Virus record (IMG/VR): IMGVR_UViG_3300009012_000009
Location: 1 to 22,350 of that record
Strand: one strand, 5' to 3'
Source: a virus
Length of the DNA stretch: 22,350 nucleotides
Within the stretch, counting starts at the first letter, position 1, and each line of letters starts with the position of its first letter. The notes beneath the pieces are model-generated. The model made no database searches, was not told where the DNA came from, and saw only the letters and a program-made list of their open reading frames with translations. The position numbers and the translations under genes were made by a program. Positions 10,915-22,050 of the stretch are shown in pieces.

Positions 10915-11159
10915 TCAGGTCGAGTGGGCTCAGGTATGGCCCGGTTTGGTCAGGTATGGTCAGGCGAGATCAGGCATGGCAAGGCTTGGTATGCCAGGGT
11001 AGGCCGGGATTGGGCGGTGTGCGGTATGGCGCGGCAAGGTACAGCGAGGTTGGGTGTGACAGGGTTGGGTCAGGTATGGCGAGGCAGGGTTCGGTTTGCT
11101 CGGGTCAGGCACGGCTAGACGAGGTTCGGCAGGGTTCGCTTCGATGTGGCATGGCGTGG
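10915..11159 (+). repeat. YNNGG pentanucleotide array 1 (49 units)
   Basis: Forty-nine consecutive 5-nt units with no indel; units start at coordinates divisible by 5. Read by eye, position 1 is C or T in 49 of 49, position 4 is G in 46 of 49 and positions 4-5 are GG in 36 of 49, while positions 2 and 3 vary. Typical units: TCAGG, TATGG, CATGG, CAAGG, TTCGG. It ends 21 nt before the ATG of the cassette gene, in its sense orientation. Confidence 0.92.
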
Positions 11160-11167
11160 CTTTATTT

Positions 11168-11180: not shown

Positions 11181-11831
11181 ATGGCACAAAACCAAGAGAC
11201 TGAAATTGGCCCCGTTGACAATTCAGCAAAAGGACTCATCGCATTCGGCGAGCCGTACATGGTACGCGCGATATTGGTCGGCGTAGCTGACATCTTGTTT
11301 CACCGATGGTCCGTAGAAGGCGTGGAAGCGAAGGGTCGAGCGGCGAAAGGATCAAAGGCGAAGCGTTCCGACGATTTAGAAAGTTACGTATGGAGGGACG
11401 ATCTCGGCCGACTGTGCGTGCCCGGTGAGTACGTCAGGCAATCAGTCATCAATGCGGCCAAGTTCCGACAAGATCCGCGCAGCCCGCGTAAGTCTGCAAT
11501 GGACCTATACAAAGCTGGCGTCGTGTCACTCACGCATCTTGCGCCAGTGAATGCGAACGGCACGCCACTCGATGCGAAGCCACAAGCGTGGGATTACGAG
11601 CATCGGTGCCGGGTCACGGTGCAACGCAATGGCATCACGCGGACGCGACCGGCGATGAAAGCAGGTTGGACAATCACTTGTGATTTTTTGATCAATTTAC
11701 CGGAGTATGTCGCACCCGATGCGCTTCATGATGTCCTGGTCAACGCTGGCCGTCTGATCGGTCTGGCTGATTTCAGACCGAGCTATGGCCGATTTGCCGT
11801 CAAGTCTTTCGAAGGATTGATCCTCGAATAA
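11181..11831 (+). CDS. Array-flanked protein, possible RAMP (Cas7-like) fold
   Basis: A 216-aa protein on the + strand inside a minus-strand operon, with pentanucleotide arrays on both sides. Residues 26-47 give a beta strand (YMVRAILVGVADILFHRW). A basic loop (KGRAAKGSKAKR, 51-62) and a short beta hairpin lead to LCVPGEYVRQSVINAAK at 78-94, like the strand-PG-helix step of RAMP proteins. Near the C-terminus GLADFRPSYGRFAV (194-207) resembles the Gly-rich RAMP loop. No nuclease or helicase motif is seen. Similarity is by eye only, so homology is unproven; a single-strand annealing protein or another small RNA/ssDNA-binding fold are alternatives. Conserved arrays on both sides suggest the gene and repeats work together. 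Confidence 0.7.
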   Translation: MAQNQETEIGPVDNSAKGLIAFGEPYMVRAILVGVADILFHRWSVEGVEAKGRAAKGSKAKRSDDLESYVWRDDLGRLCVPGEYVRQSVINAAKFRQDPRSPRKSAMDLYKAGVVSLTHLAPVNANGTPLDAKPQAWDYEHRCRVTVQRNGITRTRPAMKAGWTITCDFLINLPEYVAPDALHDVLVNAGRLIGLADFRPSYGRFAVKSFEGLILE

Positions 11832-11839
11832 CGACCAAT

Positions 11840-12154
11840 TGCGGCTCGGCGTGGTGCGGTCGGTCTGGGTACGGTTCGGCGTGGTGGGGCATGGTTAGGC
11901 TCGCTGGGACAGGACTTGGCACGGCGGGGTAAGGCTAGGTGGGATAAGGCGAGGTACGGTGCGGCATGGCCAGGTGTGGCAAGGTCGGATTTGCTAAGGC
12001 GTGGTAAGGCGTGGCGCACTCAGGCGGGCTAGGATTTGGTCTGGTTCGGCGGGGTGGGGCACGGTCAGGCAAGCTGTGGCATGGTGCGGTCGGATTAGGC
12101 GAGGCAAGGCTAGCTGCGGTGAGTTACGGCAGGATTCGGTATGGCATGGTATGG
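11840..12154 (+). repeat. YNNGG pentanucleotide array 2 (63 units)
   Basis: Sixty-three units in unbroken 5-nt phase beginning 9 bases after the stop of the cassette gene. Position 1 is a pyrimidine in 63 of 63, position 4 is G in 62 of 63, and GG occurs in 48 of 63. Same strand and same unit as array 1, yet the unit order is not a copy of array 1. Ends 3 bases before the TAA of the minus gene at 12158. Confidence 0.92.
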
Positions 12155-12175
12155 CCCTTATCCTCCATATAAGGG
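12155..12175. other. Hairpin at the end of array 2
   Basis: CCCTTAT at 12155-12161 pairs with ATAAGGG at 12169-12175 around a 7-nt loop, starting directly at the array edge; five T's follow 8 nt later (12184-12188) on the + strand. It may end or protect a + strand array transcript, but it also lies over the last codons and stop of the minus gene at 12158, so it is a weak terminator candidate only. Confidence 0.4.
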
Positions 12176-14133: not shown

Positions 14134-14874
14134 TCATATTCGCGCCAGCGCCCAAAATGTCGTCCCGTCCCCTTGCATAAGCACGCTGTTGTACTGGGCC
14201 GCGAGTGTTGGATTGACGACGCCATCGATGGTGCCCGTCAACGTGACGGCATTGGCTGAAGCGTCTGTTTTTTTAACACACAGAATCCGCCCGCTTGTGG
14301 GCGTTGGCAGCGTGATCGTTACGGCTCCGGCTGTGGCATTCACCAGAATCGTCCAATCCGTCGAGAGGACGGTATACGGCGAGTCCGCGAAGACCTTCGT
14401 GACAACTTGATGGGTCACGTTCGTGCCGGTGACGGCCGTCAGCGCCGCAGCATTCAAGGCCGGGAGGGTGCCACTCAGCACCGCCGCATTCAGCGCCGTG
14501 AGGGCTGCCCCAGAGATCGCTGGCAGAGCACCCACCAAATTGCTGGATGTGAGCGATGTCAGCGCCGAGCCATCGAGGGCTGGCAAGGCTCCGGTCAGAT
14601 CCGCGCTCGGAATCGTGGCGGAACTCTGCACCGCTGCCACGGCTCCAGCCACCGTCATGCTCAAATGCCCGGCGGTCAAGGTGCCGAGCGAAAACTCGTC
14701 GGTCAGACTCGGATTACTGGTCAGAACTAGATACCGAGCGTTAGCCGGCGCAACTGCATATGTGACAGTCTGCTGGAGATCGACGTAAAAACGATTCCAC
14801 AGCGCATTGACCTGCCCGCTTTGGTCCGCGAGCGGAGTGTTGACGGGTGGTGGCGCAATCGCCGTGCTGCTCAT
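14134..14874 (-). CDS. Tail-fibre-like protein with decapeptide repeats
   Basis: A 246-aa protein from ATG 14874, adjacent to the gp10-like gene's TAG. The start APPPVNTPLADQSGQVNALW followed by RFYVDLQQTV is a typical short phage fibre N-terminus. Residues about 85-150 repeat a roughly ten-residue unit (LTGALPALDGSALTSL, LVGALPAISGAALTAL, LSGTLPALNAAALTAV), as in elongated beta fibres. The C-terminus (YTVLSTDWTILVNATAGAVT, TLPTPTSGRILCVKKTDASA, GDGTTFWALARI) is a common phage fibre tip module. Likely a short fibre or needle-associated part of the tail. Confidence 0.8.
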   Translation of the reverse strand: MSSTAIAPPPVNTPLADQSGQVNALWNRFYVDLQQTVTYAVAPANARYLVLTSNPSLTDEFSLGTLTAGHLSMTVAGAVAAVQSSATIPSADLTGALPALDGSALTSLTSSNLVGALPAISGAALTALNAAVLSGTLPALNAAALTAVTGTNVTHQVVTKVFADSPYTVLSTDWTILVNATAGAVTITLPTPTSGRILCVKKTDASANAVTLTGTIDGVVNPTLAAQYNSVLMQGDGTTFWALARI

Positions 14875-19592: not shown

Positions 19593-21866
19593 CTAGGCAC
19601 TTCCCTTCATTGAACCGAAATTCACCATCGCCGTTCGGATGGCTAGGAGTAAAACGAGAACGCTTGCGAAATTGGCATTGATCTTCGTTGGATCAGCCAA
19701 TCCGGTGGTCGTCACATCCACACATGATGATGCGGCGGTGCCACCCGTACTATCAGTAAGTGCGGCCTGACCCGCCGCTGCGGGCTGGACGATTGGAGTT
19801 TGGTTCCACACTGAAAGTTTCTGCGATGTCGCTGTGCCAATCTTCGTGCCGGTTGTCGCATTGACCGCAATATCACCAGCATCGGGAAGGATCAGACCGC
19901 CACCGAAGGTGATAGCGCCTGACGTAATTGGAACTGAAATTGCGGCTGTCGGTGTGGCCTCGACGCCGCCGTAATCCCATGTCGCTACCCGCGCCGTGCC
20001 GGTGCTGCTGCCGTTGACCGCGCCAAAGCGGAATTGGTTGGCCGTCGTCTTCCAATCGAGCTTGAACCACTCCCCGGCGGTGTCCACCGTGGTGAAGGTG
20101 TTGTAGATGCGAAACTTCTGCGCGGTCGTCAGGGCATTGAGGTTACGCTGCGCTAGGACATTCGCCCCGTCGCGCATGAGATTCACATCTGCGCCGCTGG
20201 TGGCATCCGCCGACGAACTCCAGCCAAACCCTTGGGCTGAGCCGACTTGCAATGTTCCTGTAGATCCCGCTAAGAGGCACAACCGATTCGTCGTGCCGTC
20301 GTAGACGGCGAACCGATTGGAGTTCTGATAGATGAGTGTGGCAGACGACCCAAGGTTGATCCCGCTCGTAAACGTATTCGCATTACCTGTGAATGTTTGA
20401 ATCGCATCCGTGCGTGCGATGGTGGCAGAAGTCGTCGGGAAGGTCATTGTGGTCGCGTCGGTGCCCGCCAACGTCAATGTGTTATTGAATGTCAGCGTCT
20501 TGCCTGCCACACCCGTCAGCGTGTAGGTGCCCGTCGTGAAGGTGTTGCCATTCAGACTGGTCGCTGTCGCCACACCGAGCACGGGCGTGACCAGCGTCGG
20601 AGAGGTCGCGAGCACGTTGTTGCCCGTGCCCGTGGAGGTGTTCCAGCTGACATCCGTGCCATCGCTCTTGAGCACCGTATTCGCCGCGCCAATCGCCAGC
20701 CGCGCCCACTTGGGCGTGCTGTTCCCGATGATCAGATCGCCGCGCACGACCGAGGCCGCGAGAGTGTCGCCGTGCGTCGCGCTGAGGACGTTGTGCGCCG
20801 TGACGCTGGTCAGATAGCCGCTGTCATTCGTCCACTGCGAGATGTTCCCAGTCTTGTTCGTGAAGGCTTCAGCCCCAGCGAGCGTCGCTAGCGTGCCGGT
20901 CGTGGGGAAGGTCACGCCCGTCGCTGCCGTCATCGTGAATGTGCTGGCGAATGCGCCCGCCGTCGTGAGGTTACCGCCGAGCGTGATCATGCCGGTGTTG
21001 CTGACGCCCGTCCCGCCATTCGCCGCTGGGAGGATACCGGTGACACCTGTGGTCAACGGGAGACCGCTGCAACTGGTCAGCGTCCCAGATTGGGGCGTGC
21101 CGAGGATGGGTGTCACCAACGTGGGGGAAGTCGCAAACACGGCCGCGCCCGATCCCGTTTCGTCGGTCAGGGCTGCGGCCAGATTGGCGCTGGAAGGCGT
21201 TCCCAGCCACGTAGACACGCCCGAACCGAGTCCGGTGATGCTGGCGAGGGGTAAGCCCGTACAATTGCTCAGAAGGCCACTGGCGGGCGTCCCGAGTGCT
21301 GGTGTTACCAGAGTGGGACTGGTTGCGAACACCAGTGCCCCGGTTCCAGTTTCATCCGTCATGGCGCTGGCGAGATTCGCGCTTGACGGCGTACCGAGAA
21401 ATGTGGCGATACCAGTCCCGAGGCCCGTCAGATCCGCTAGCAGTAATCCGCTGGCTGTTGGTAATCCGGCGCTGTAACGAATGTATTGACCCGTCGAACC
21501 AGCAGTGAGGGGCGTTGGTGTGCCGGTGCTCGCGAGATATGCGATATCGCCGGTATTTGCTAATGCGCCCGGACTTCTAAGTAAGCCGCCTGCGCTCAAA
21601 ACATGGAACACGCTTGCGCCAGATGAATGCGCAGCAGCGACCGTGCTCTCGGCGGCTCTCGTGATAGTCCAGACCGGACCGATGAGGGCGCTGACGATCA
21701 TCAATTCGTTGTCGATCAGAATTCTGAATTGAGGAACGGCAGGAAAGGACGATGCTGAAGTAACCGTTAGACTGGTATCAGCAGCAAGAATGCTGCTGGC
21801 GAGCGTCGTCCATGCGGCGCTTGGTGTGCTTAAAACGGGCGCGTTCGCGAATTGTTCAAGAGCCAA
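19593..21866 (-). CDS. Tail fibre with long repeats
   Basis: About 757 aa. I prefer TTG 21866, which gives a MALEQFAN start typical of this fibre type, with AGGT 13 nt upstream; the longer TTG at 21893 lies in the T-run of the terminator. Residues about 20-85 are the small domain also seen in the protein at 1744. From about 135 to 270 it repeats LGTPSSANLA / TDETGTGALVFATSPTLVTP / LGTPASGLLSNCTGLPL units, a hallmark of long phage fibres, followed by GGNLTTAGAFASTFTM- and TFPTTGTLA-type repeats. The C-terminus has a predicted helical end (INANFASVLVLLLAIRTAMV). Likely an adhesin or distal fibre; nearly identical repeats make it prone to recombination. Confidence 0.85.
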   Translation of the reverse strand: MALEQFANAPVLSTPSAAWTTLASSILAADTSLTVTSASSFPAVPQFRILIDNELMIVSALIGPVWTITRAAESTVAAAHSSGASVFHVLSAGGLLRSPGALANTGDIAYLASTGTPTPLTAGSTGQYIRYSAGLPTASGLLLADLTGLGTGIATFLGTPSSANLASAMTDETGTGALVFATSPTLVTPALGTPASGLLSNCTGLPLASITGLGSGVSTWLGTPSSANLAAALTDETGSGAAVFATSPTLVTPILGTPQSGTLTSCSGLPLTTGVTGILPAANGGTGVSNTGMITLGGNLTTAGAFASTFTMTAATGVTFPTTGTLATLAGAEAFTNKTGNISQWTNDSGYLTSVTAHNVLSATHGDTLAASVVRGDLIIGNSTPKWARLAIGAANTVLKSDGTDVSWNTSTGTGNNVLATSPTLVTPVLGVATATSLNGNTFTTGTYTLTGVAGKTLTFNNTLTLAGTDATTMTFPTTSATIARTDAIQTFTGNANTFTSGINLGSSATLIYQNSNRFAVYDGTTNRLCLLAGSTGTLQVGSAQGFGWSSSADATSGADVNLMRDGANVLAQRNLNALTTAQKFRIYNTFTTVDTAGEWFKLDWKTTANQFRFGAVNGSSTGTARVATWDYGGVEATPTAAISVPITSGAITFGGGLILPDAGDIAVNATTGTKIGTATSQKLSVWNQTPIVQPAAAGQAALTDSTGGTAASSCVDVTTTGLADPTKINANFASVLVLLLAIRTAMVNFGSMKGSA

Positions 21867-21891
21867 TGTCGGGCATTTTACCTGTGTACAC

Positions 21892-21922
21892 AAAAAAGGC
21901 TGACAGTGATTAACTGTCAGCC
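21892..21922 (-). terminator. Rho-independent terminator
   Basis: Read leftward: GGCTGACAGT (21922-21913), loop TAATC, ACTGTCAGCC (21907-21898), then six T's (21897-21892). A perfect 10-bp stem with a U-run is a strong intrinsic terminator. It ends the transcript that carries the 66-aa gene and array 3, and lies 25 nt before the preferred fibre start, so the fibre needs its own promoter or read-through. Confidence 0.88.
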
Positions 21923-21924
21923 CA

Positions 21925-22029
21925 CCTTGCCAGACCCAGCCTTAGCGCGCCGCACCACGCCACATCTCATCGCGCCCAGCCCTATCGCACCGGACCGTGG
22001 CATACCAGACCGAGCCGAACCACGCCGCA
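21925..22029 (-). repeat. YNNGG pentanucleotide array 3 (21 units, minus strand)
   Basis: On the + strand this reads CCNNR; on the minus strand it is YNNGG in fixed phase. Position 1 is a pyrimidine and position 4 is G in 21 of 21; GG occurs in 16 of 21. It begins 21 nt after the stop of the minus gene at 22051 and runs up to the terminator stem, so it would form the 3' UTR of that transcript. It lies about 9.8 kb from array 2, in the sense direction of its own operon. Confidence 0.88.
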
Positions 22030-22050
22030 AGCCTTGATTATAGCTGAGAT

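Follow-up and report, generated by a model that had tools for sequence, protein, structure and literature searches.

An array of 21 five-base units on the minus strand of this viral DNA, here called A3, is best read as a free-standing guide RNA (vrRNA) belonging to the VIPR system, repressing a tail gene of rival phages while the phage's own tail gene escapes; we put the probability of this reading at about 0.88. The array, the family and predicted fold of the Vipr protein, the match between code and target and the mismatch to the phage's own gene were computed here from the window (the whole stretch of DNA analysed, 22,350 nucleotides of IMG/VR record IMGVR_UViG_3300009012_000009) and from related DNA. 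That the A3 RNA would be made, loaded, bound to DNA and repressive follows by analogy from the system described in PMC13142463.

VIPR (Viral Interference Programmable Repeat) pairs the Vipr protein, an ancestral RAMP with a G-loop, with vrRNAs in which GGY and NN alternate, and seven types have been defined (PMC13142463, a 2026 preprint, doi 10.64898/2026.04.26.720920). As described there, each NN dinucleotide pairs with double-stranded DNA and the base after it is skipped, the skipped base lying at codon wobble positions in the targets. The targets are repressed, and in nature they are genes of competing phages, those of other VIPR systems among them. Arrays typically lie in intergenic regions beside vipr, an accessory vap gene is likewise typical, and in the SUSP1 and P. 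fulva clades an invariable, structured 3' tail comes after the 9-16 units of the vrRNA (PMC13142463).

Structure and surroundings of A3

The features at this end of the window are as follows.

22026-21922, minus strand: array 3 (A3), 21 consecutive five-base units in one phase, G-G/a/c-Y-N-N
21897..21923, minus strand: intrinsic terminator directly 3' of A3, with an 11-pair stem, a loop of 5 and T6
22037..22042, minus strand: TATAAT, a candidate -10 box lying ~10 bases 5' of unit 1 of A3
22251-22051, minus strand: 66-codon ORF upstream of A3

An earlier note on this DNA had described 21 minus-strand units obeying the same rule as the other arrays of the window. The number of units and their single phase held (the tract is 21925-22029 when phased as YNNGG), but a strict GGY is broken in 5 of the 21, which have GAT or GCY instead. 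The first G is present in 21/21 units, the second G in 16/21 and the pyrimidine in 21/21, with the last two positions free, so the actual rule is G-(G, some A or C)-Y-N-N; arrays 1 and 2 show the same relaxed rule. The run score of A3 is 10, compared with a maximum of 5 when the remaining window sequence was resampled 200 times under a Markov model and a highest score of 3 in the real window sequence outside the three arrays. In RNA order the NN letters of A3 are GT TC TC CT AT AC CC GC AG TG GC GA GT GT GC GC AA TG CT AA GG. A 55-codon ORF runs through the array, and a coding reading was set aside, the guide code already accounting for the NN letters.

The placing of A3 between a small gene and an intrinsic terminator, also claimed in that note, was borne out by the presence of the ORF and by the folding of the terminator (-18.4 kcal/mol, z = -5.8). 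The ORF has no family match and no phage match. The TATAAT at 22042-22037 is the sole one in the window, and there is no good -35 hexamer for it. Judged from these signals, A3 may be its own transcription unit, alongside or in place of being a 3' UTR, and with a candidate promoter of its own its status as a 3' UTR is uncertain. No Rfam family, the hammerhead included, matched in the window or in ten related loci, no near-identical phage DNA was found in named collections, and an exact 7-unit pattern found no second copy of the A3 guide in viral contigs.

The Vipr protein and arrays in related loci

The centre of the window contains a vipr gene flanked by two further arrays.

10933..11162, plus strand: array 1 of 46 units, immediately 5' of vipr
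11181-11831, plus strand: vipr gene, 216 aa, PHROG 4652 (function unlisted)
11843..12157, plus strand: array 2 of 63 units, immediately 3' of vipr

The only gene that separates array 1 from array 2 is vipr, and A3 lies ~10 kb from it on the opposite strand. A profile of the Vipr family (27 members) matched one PDB sequence only, the SUSP1 Vipr protein (36pp, E=1.3e-10), and the window's protein used as a single-sequence query gave an E of 1e-4 to the same protein. Its AlphaFold model (pLDDT 87) has a predicted RAMP/Cas7-like fold, for which the top Foldseek matches are type VII Cas7 and Csm3 subunits (best E 7.5e-7, TM ~0.5), and a stretch G-x-x-D-x-R-P-x-Y-G-R-F is conserved in the family. 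A RAMP-type Vipr protein is encoded with the arrays, as in VIPR, and the one trans-acting factor that had been postulated for distant arrays would be this protein of the window itself. The vipr gene of phage DSL-LC04 (L037, OR003939.1, 5001-5618), which has arrays just upstream, carries the annotation of a helix-turn-helix transcriptional regulator.

The structure comparison suggests a likeness to class 1 CRISPR-Cas, in which RAMP proteins of the Cas7/Csm3 kind form filaments on crRNA, and PMC13142463 describes a further likeness in RNA-guided recognition with periodic unpaired bases. The difference is that CRISPR repeats and spacers are absent here and the guide information is divided into dinucleotides; direct repeats with contiguous spacers were not found in the window, where a tandem-repeat search gave only short low-copy repeats. 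A 36-base tandem repeat of 1.9 copies occurs at 14439-14509 inside ORF 14134-14874 on the minus strand. TIGR-Tas shares phage-borne tandem guide arrays and an RNA-guided protein, but that protein is another one, going by its description in PMC12045711.

Relatives of vipr were collected from 34 viral and 36 prokaryotic-genome loci. GGYNN arrays lie beside vipr in nearly all of the viral relatives and in 33 of the 36 prokaryotic-genome loci, with a second-G share of 0.72-1.00, the share over the window being 0.78. Since the share of imperfect units is similar in arrays 1 and 2, imperfection appears normal for such arrays. Across ~1.1 Mb of viral relatives and the prokaryotic-genome loci, arrays nearly always adjoin vipr and lie on its strand, in agreement with the single strand sense proposed earlier; the exceptions are A3 and one 37-unit array in L032 (1166-1350, minus strand), which is antisense to vipr and abuts its 3' end. 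A3 is the only distal array seen among the relatives, many of whose contigs are fragments from which remote arrays may escape.

After vipr, no vap gene is present in the window; the gene following array 2 is on the opposite strand, and the genes downstream vary among relatives. The 3' flanks of arrays of the clade have no shared 3' tail discernible by eye. In L020 (3234-5059), nearly perfect and very long arrays of 116, 30 and 84 units surround vipr. A RusA-like ORF (PFPPSTN...), a possible accessory nuclease gene recognised by eye, follows the last array in L004 and L005.

Decoding of A3 to a target in tail-fibre genes

A3 was decoded with the published VIPR rule, by which NN pairs with DNA and one base is skipped per pair, and its units 1-8 and 9-16 were queried in IMG/VR as two separate patterns. 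At least 120 stretches matched units 1-8 and at least 120 matched units 9-16, and in at least 10 contigs the two halves were adjacent and in register. Three control 8-unit patterns taken as background (array 2 units 24-31, array 2 units 48-55 and array 1 units 17-24) gave only 9, 4 and 10 matches, which did not extend, save for one partial extension to 11 units (L369, score 19). Among the matches listed, the best target site agrees with 41/42 guide bases, twelve more agree with 40/42, and no contig agrees with all 42.

In a held-out test, 132 sites were selected with units 1-8 only and then scored over units 9-21. The mean match was 18.5/26 at skip 1, compared with 7.1, 7.7 and 6.9 of 26 at skips 0, 2 and 3, and 8.1/26 when the order of units was shuffled. 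Read antisense on the target coding strand, codon by codon, A3 gives PLSQFAATTSAQLAGVISDET, which equals the motif in the target proteins; the base skipped by the guide is the wobble base of each codon, and the fit runs along the whole of A3, imperfect units included. Annotations of the products carrying this motif name them as tail fibres or virion structural proteins. An independent protein search led to a tail-fibre gene of a named podovirus, and this gene agrees with 35/42 guide bases. The motif is widespread in environmental phages.

At the level of sequence, A3 decodes to a real target with the 1-nt skip code of VIPR. The function as RNA that had been argued from the orientation of the arrays is supported by this decoding of the NN letters, the earlier reading being correct in its main lines but lacking the guide code, and the idea of A3 as a mere protein-binding element in a 3' UTR gives way, as the variable NN positions carry information in the manner of a non-contiguous DNA guide. 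An RNA acting by its shape or as a protein sponge, whether a two-layer G-quadruplex or a decoy that draws off an RNA-binding protein of the host, would leave the NN letters without a message. GG every five bases with 3-base loops suits a two-layer quadruplex, and the strand bias of the arrays also agrees with such an RNA, but the second G is the position that varies while the pyrimidine does not, and the NN letters match tail and vipr genes solely at the 1-nt skip. The held-out test refutes shape or sponge as the main explanation, and this reading is barely credible.

It is improbable, too, that A3 is a formerly working VIPR guide now silent or in decay, an orphan without transcription or loading. 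The units lacking the second G, the remote site and the lack of another copy in viral contigs by the exact 7-unit pattern are consistent with decay, whereas imperfect units are similarly common in arrays 1 and 2, the NN fit to the motif is intact throughout, and a strong terminator is retained along with a -10-like box at the start.

Mismatch to the phage's own tail gene

Past the terminator of A3 comes a tail gene containing two versions of the motif.

19593..21893, minus strand: own tail/virion structural protein gene, with a weak match to PHROG 6002
21349..21411, minus strand: own motif version ...TPSSANLASAMTDET, 24/42 A3 guide bases
21157..21219, minus strand: second own motif version ...TPSSANLAAALTDET, 24/42 A3 guide bases

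PHROG 6002 is also the family of the product of an A3 target gene. The own motifs have few fully matching units and agree with 24/42 guide bases, compared with 34-41/42 at the foreign sites found, from which the phage's own tail gene is predicted to be spared by A3. The position of A3 directly upstream of an own gene with homologous motifs would suit a regulator of that gene and not of rivals, but the poorer agreement of the own motifs and the absence of any better site in the window, where no target rose above shuffled guides at skip 1, make such regulation very unlikely. The reading of A3 as a guide against rivals fits both the foreign matches and the own mismatch.

Targets of arrays 1 and 2 and of related arrays

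Two guide segments of the arrays beside vipr were assigned to targets.

11088..11147, plus strand: guide segment, array 1 units 32-43, 24/24 to the vipr gene of L021 (...TDDLESYVWRN)
11868..11922, plus strand: guide segment, array 2 units 6-16, matching the vipr genes of L007 and L008 (VNLPEYIPPDV)

The array 1 segment also matches the vipr gene of L034 (22/22 over 11 units). Most of arrays 1 and 2 (10933-11087 and 11923-12157) yielded no decoded target, and guide borders inside these long arrays are not visible from sequence. When 58 arrays were compared with 29 distinct vipr genes, four scored at least 16 at skip 1 and none did at other skips, and no array among the 58 matched its own vipr gene above background. 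Clade-wide, with A3 left out, 115 arrays gave 20 matches scoring at least 18 at skip 1, skips 0 and 2 yielded no such match, and the signal at skip 3 consisted of arrays matching themselves; near-identical contigs were counted more than once in this test. The clade-wide DNA was partly retrieved with the array patterns of this window, which biases the L369 match of array 2 and spares the vipr matches and the matches of other arrays.

Units 20-30 of the 30-unit array of L020 match the vipr genes of other phages (KKTDNVESYV), guides of L332 and L338 (loci from Phycisphaerae assemblies) match a Walker-A-like stretch VIPTGGGKTPVM at L004:5478 and L005:6784, and a guide of L342 matches L005/L006. 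From such sequence matches, VIPR elements within one lineage seem to target one another.

Discussion

The window resembles VIPR in having a Vipr-family RAMP protein with three GGY/NN arrays of 46, 63 and 21 units, of which arrays 1 and 2 sit beside vipr as is typical in PMC13142463, and its arrays appear by their sequence to fit the 1-nt skip code, with genes of competing phages, vipr included, as targets. A3 departs from the systems reported there in its remote site on the other strand, no remote guide being described in the main text of PMC13142463, in its tolerance for loss of the second G and in its target, a conserved tail-fibre motif. Counting against the guide reading are the 21 units as compared with the 9-16 reported, the distance from vipr, the 5/21 units without the second G, the lack of a vap gene after vipr in the window, the wide occurrence of the motif and the absence of a 42/42 contig.

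By analogy with VIPR, A3 probably switches off the tail genes of rivals. In the mechanism proposed, A3 would be transcribed on the minus strand from the operon of the small ORF or from its own -10 box and would end at the terminator. Vipr, made ~10 kb away, would coat the RNA, each five-base unit probably being taken up by one subunit that grips its GGY bases and displays its NN pair. All 21 pairs would then bind double-stranded DNA, skipping the wobble base of each PLSQFAATTSAQLAGVISDET codon, and the bound complex would block transcription of the rival's tail gene, with the phage's own version of the motif escaping.

A3 might further be a guard of the tail allele, that is, a guide gene within the tail module that silences the common alternative tail version of competitors. 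The guide lies next to the phage's own, exempt version of the gene it targets, which suggests a guard, an exclusion unit that could move along with the tail module and apart from the VIPR locus encoding the protein. This extension is tentative, and we lean against it on balance.

A3 belongs to the known VIPR system and is unusual in its remote position, its 21 units and its decoded natural target. The present results support the 1-nt skip code of VIPR by sequence alone in viruses beyond those tested, and indicate that VIPR guides need not sit in the VIPR locus, making whole genomes worth covering in searches for them. They also name natural targets, a widespread tail-fibre motif read without regard to its wobble bases, and vipr genes carried by other phages, self-matches being absent. 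Guides that can be decoded in this way allow predictions of who fights whom among environmental phages.
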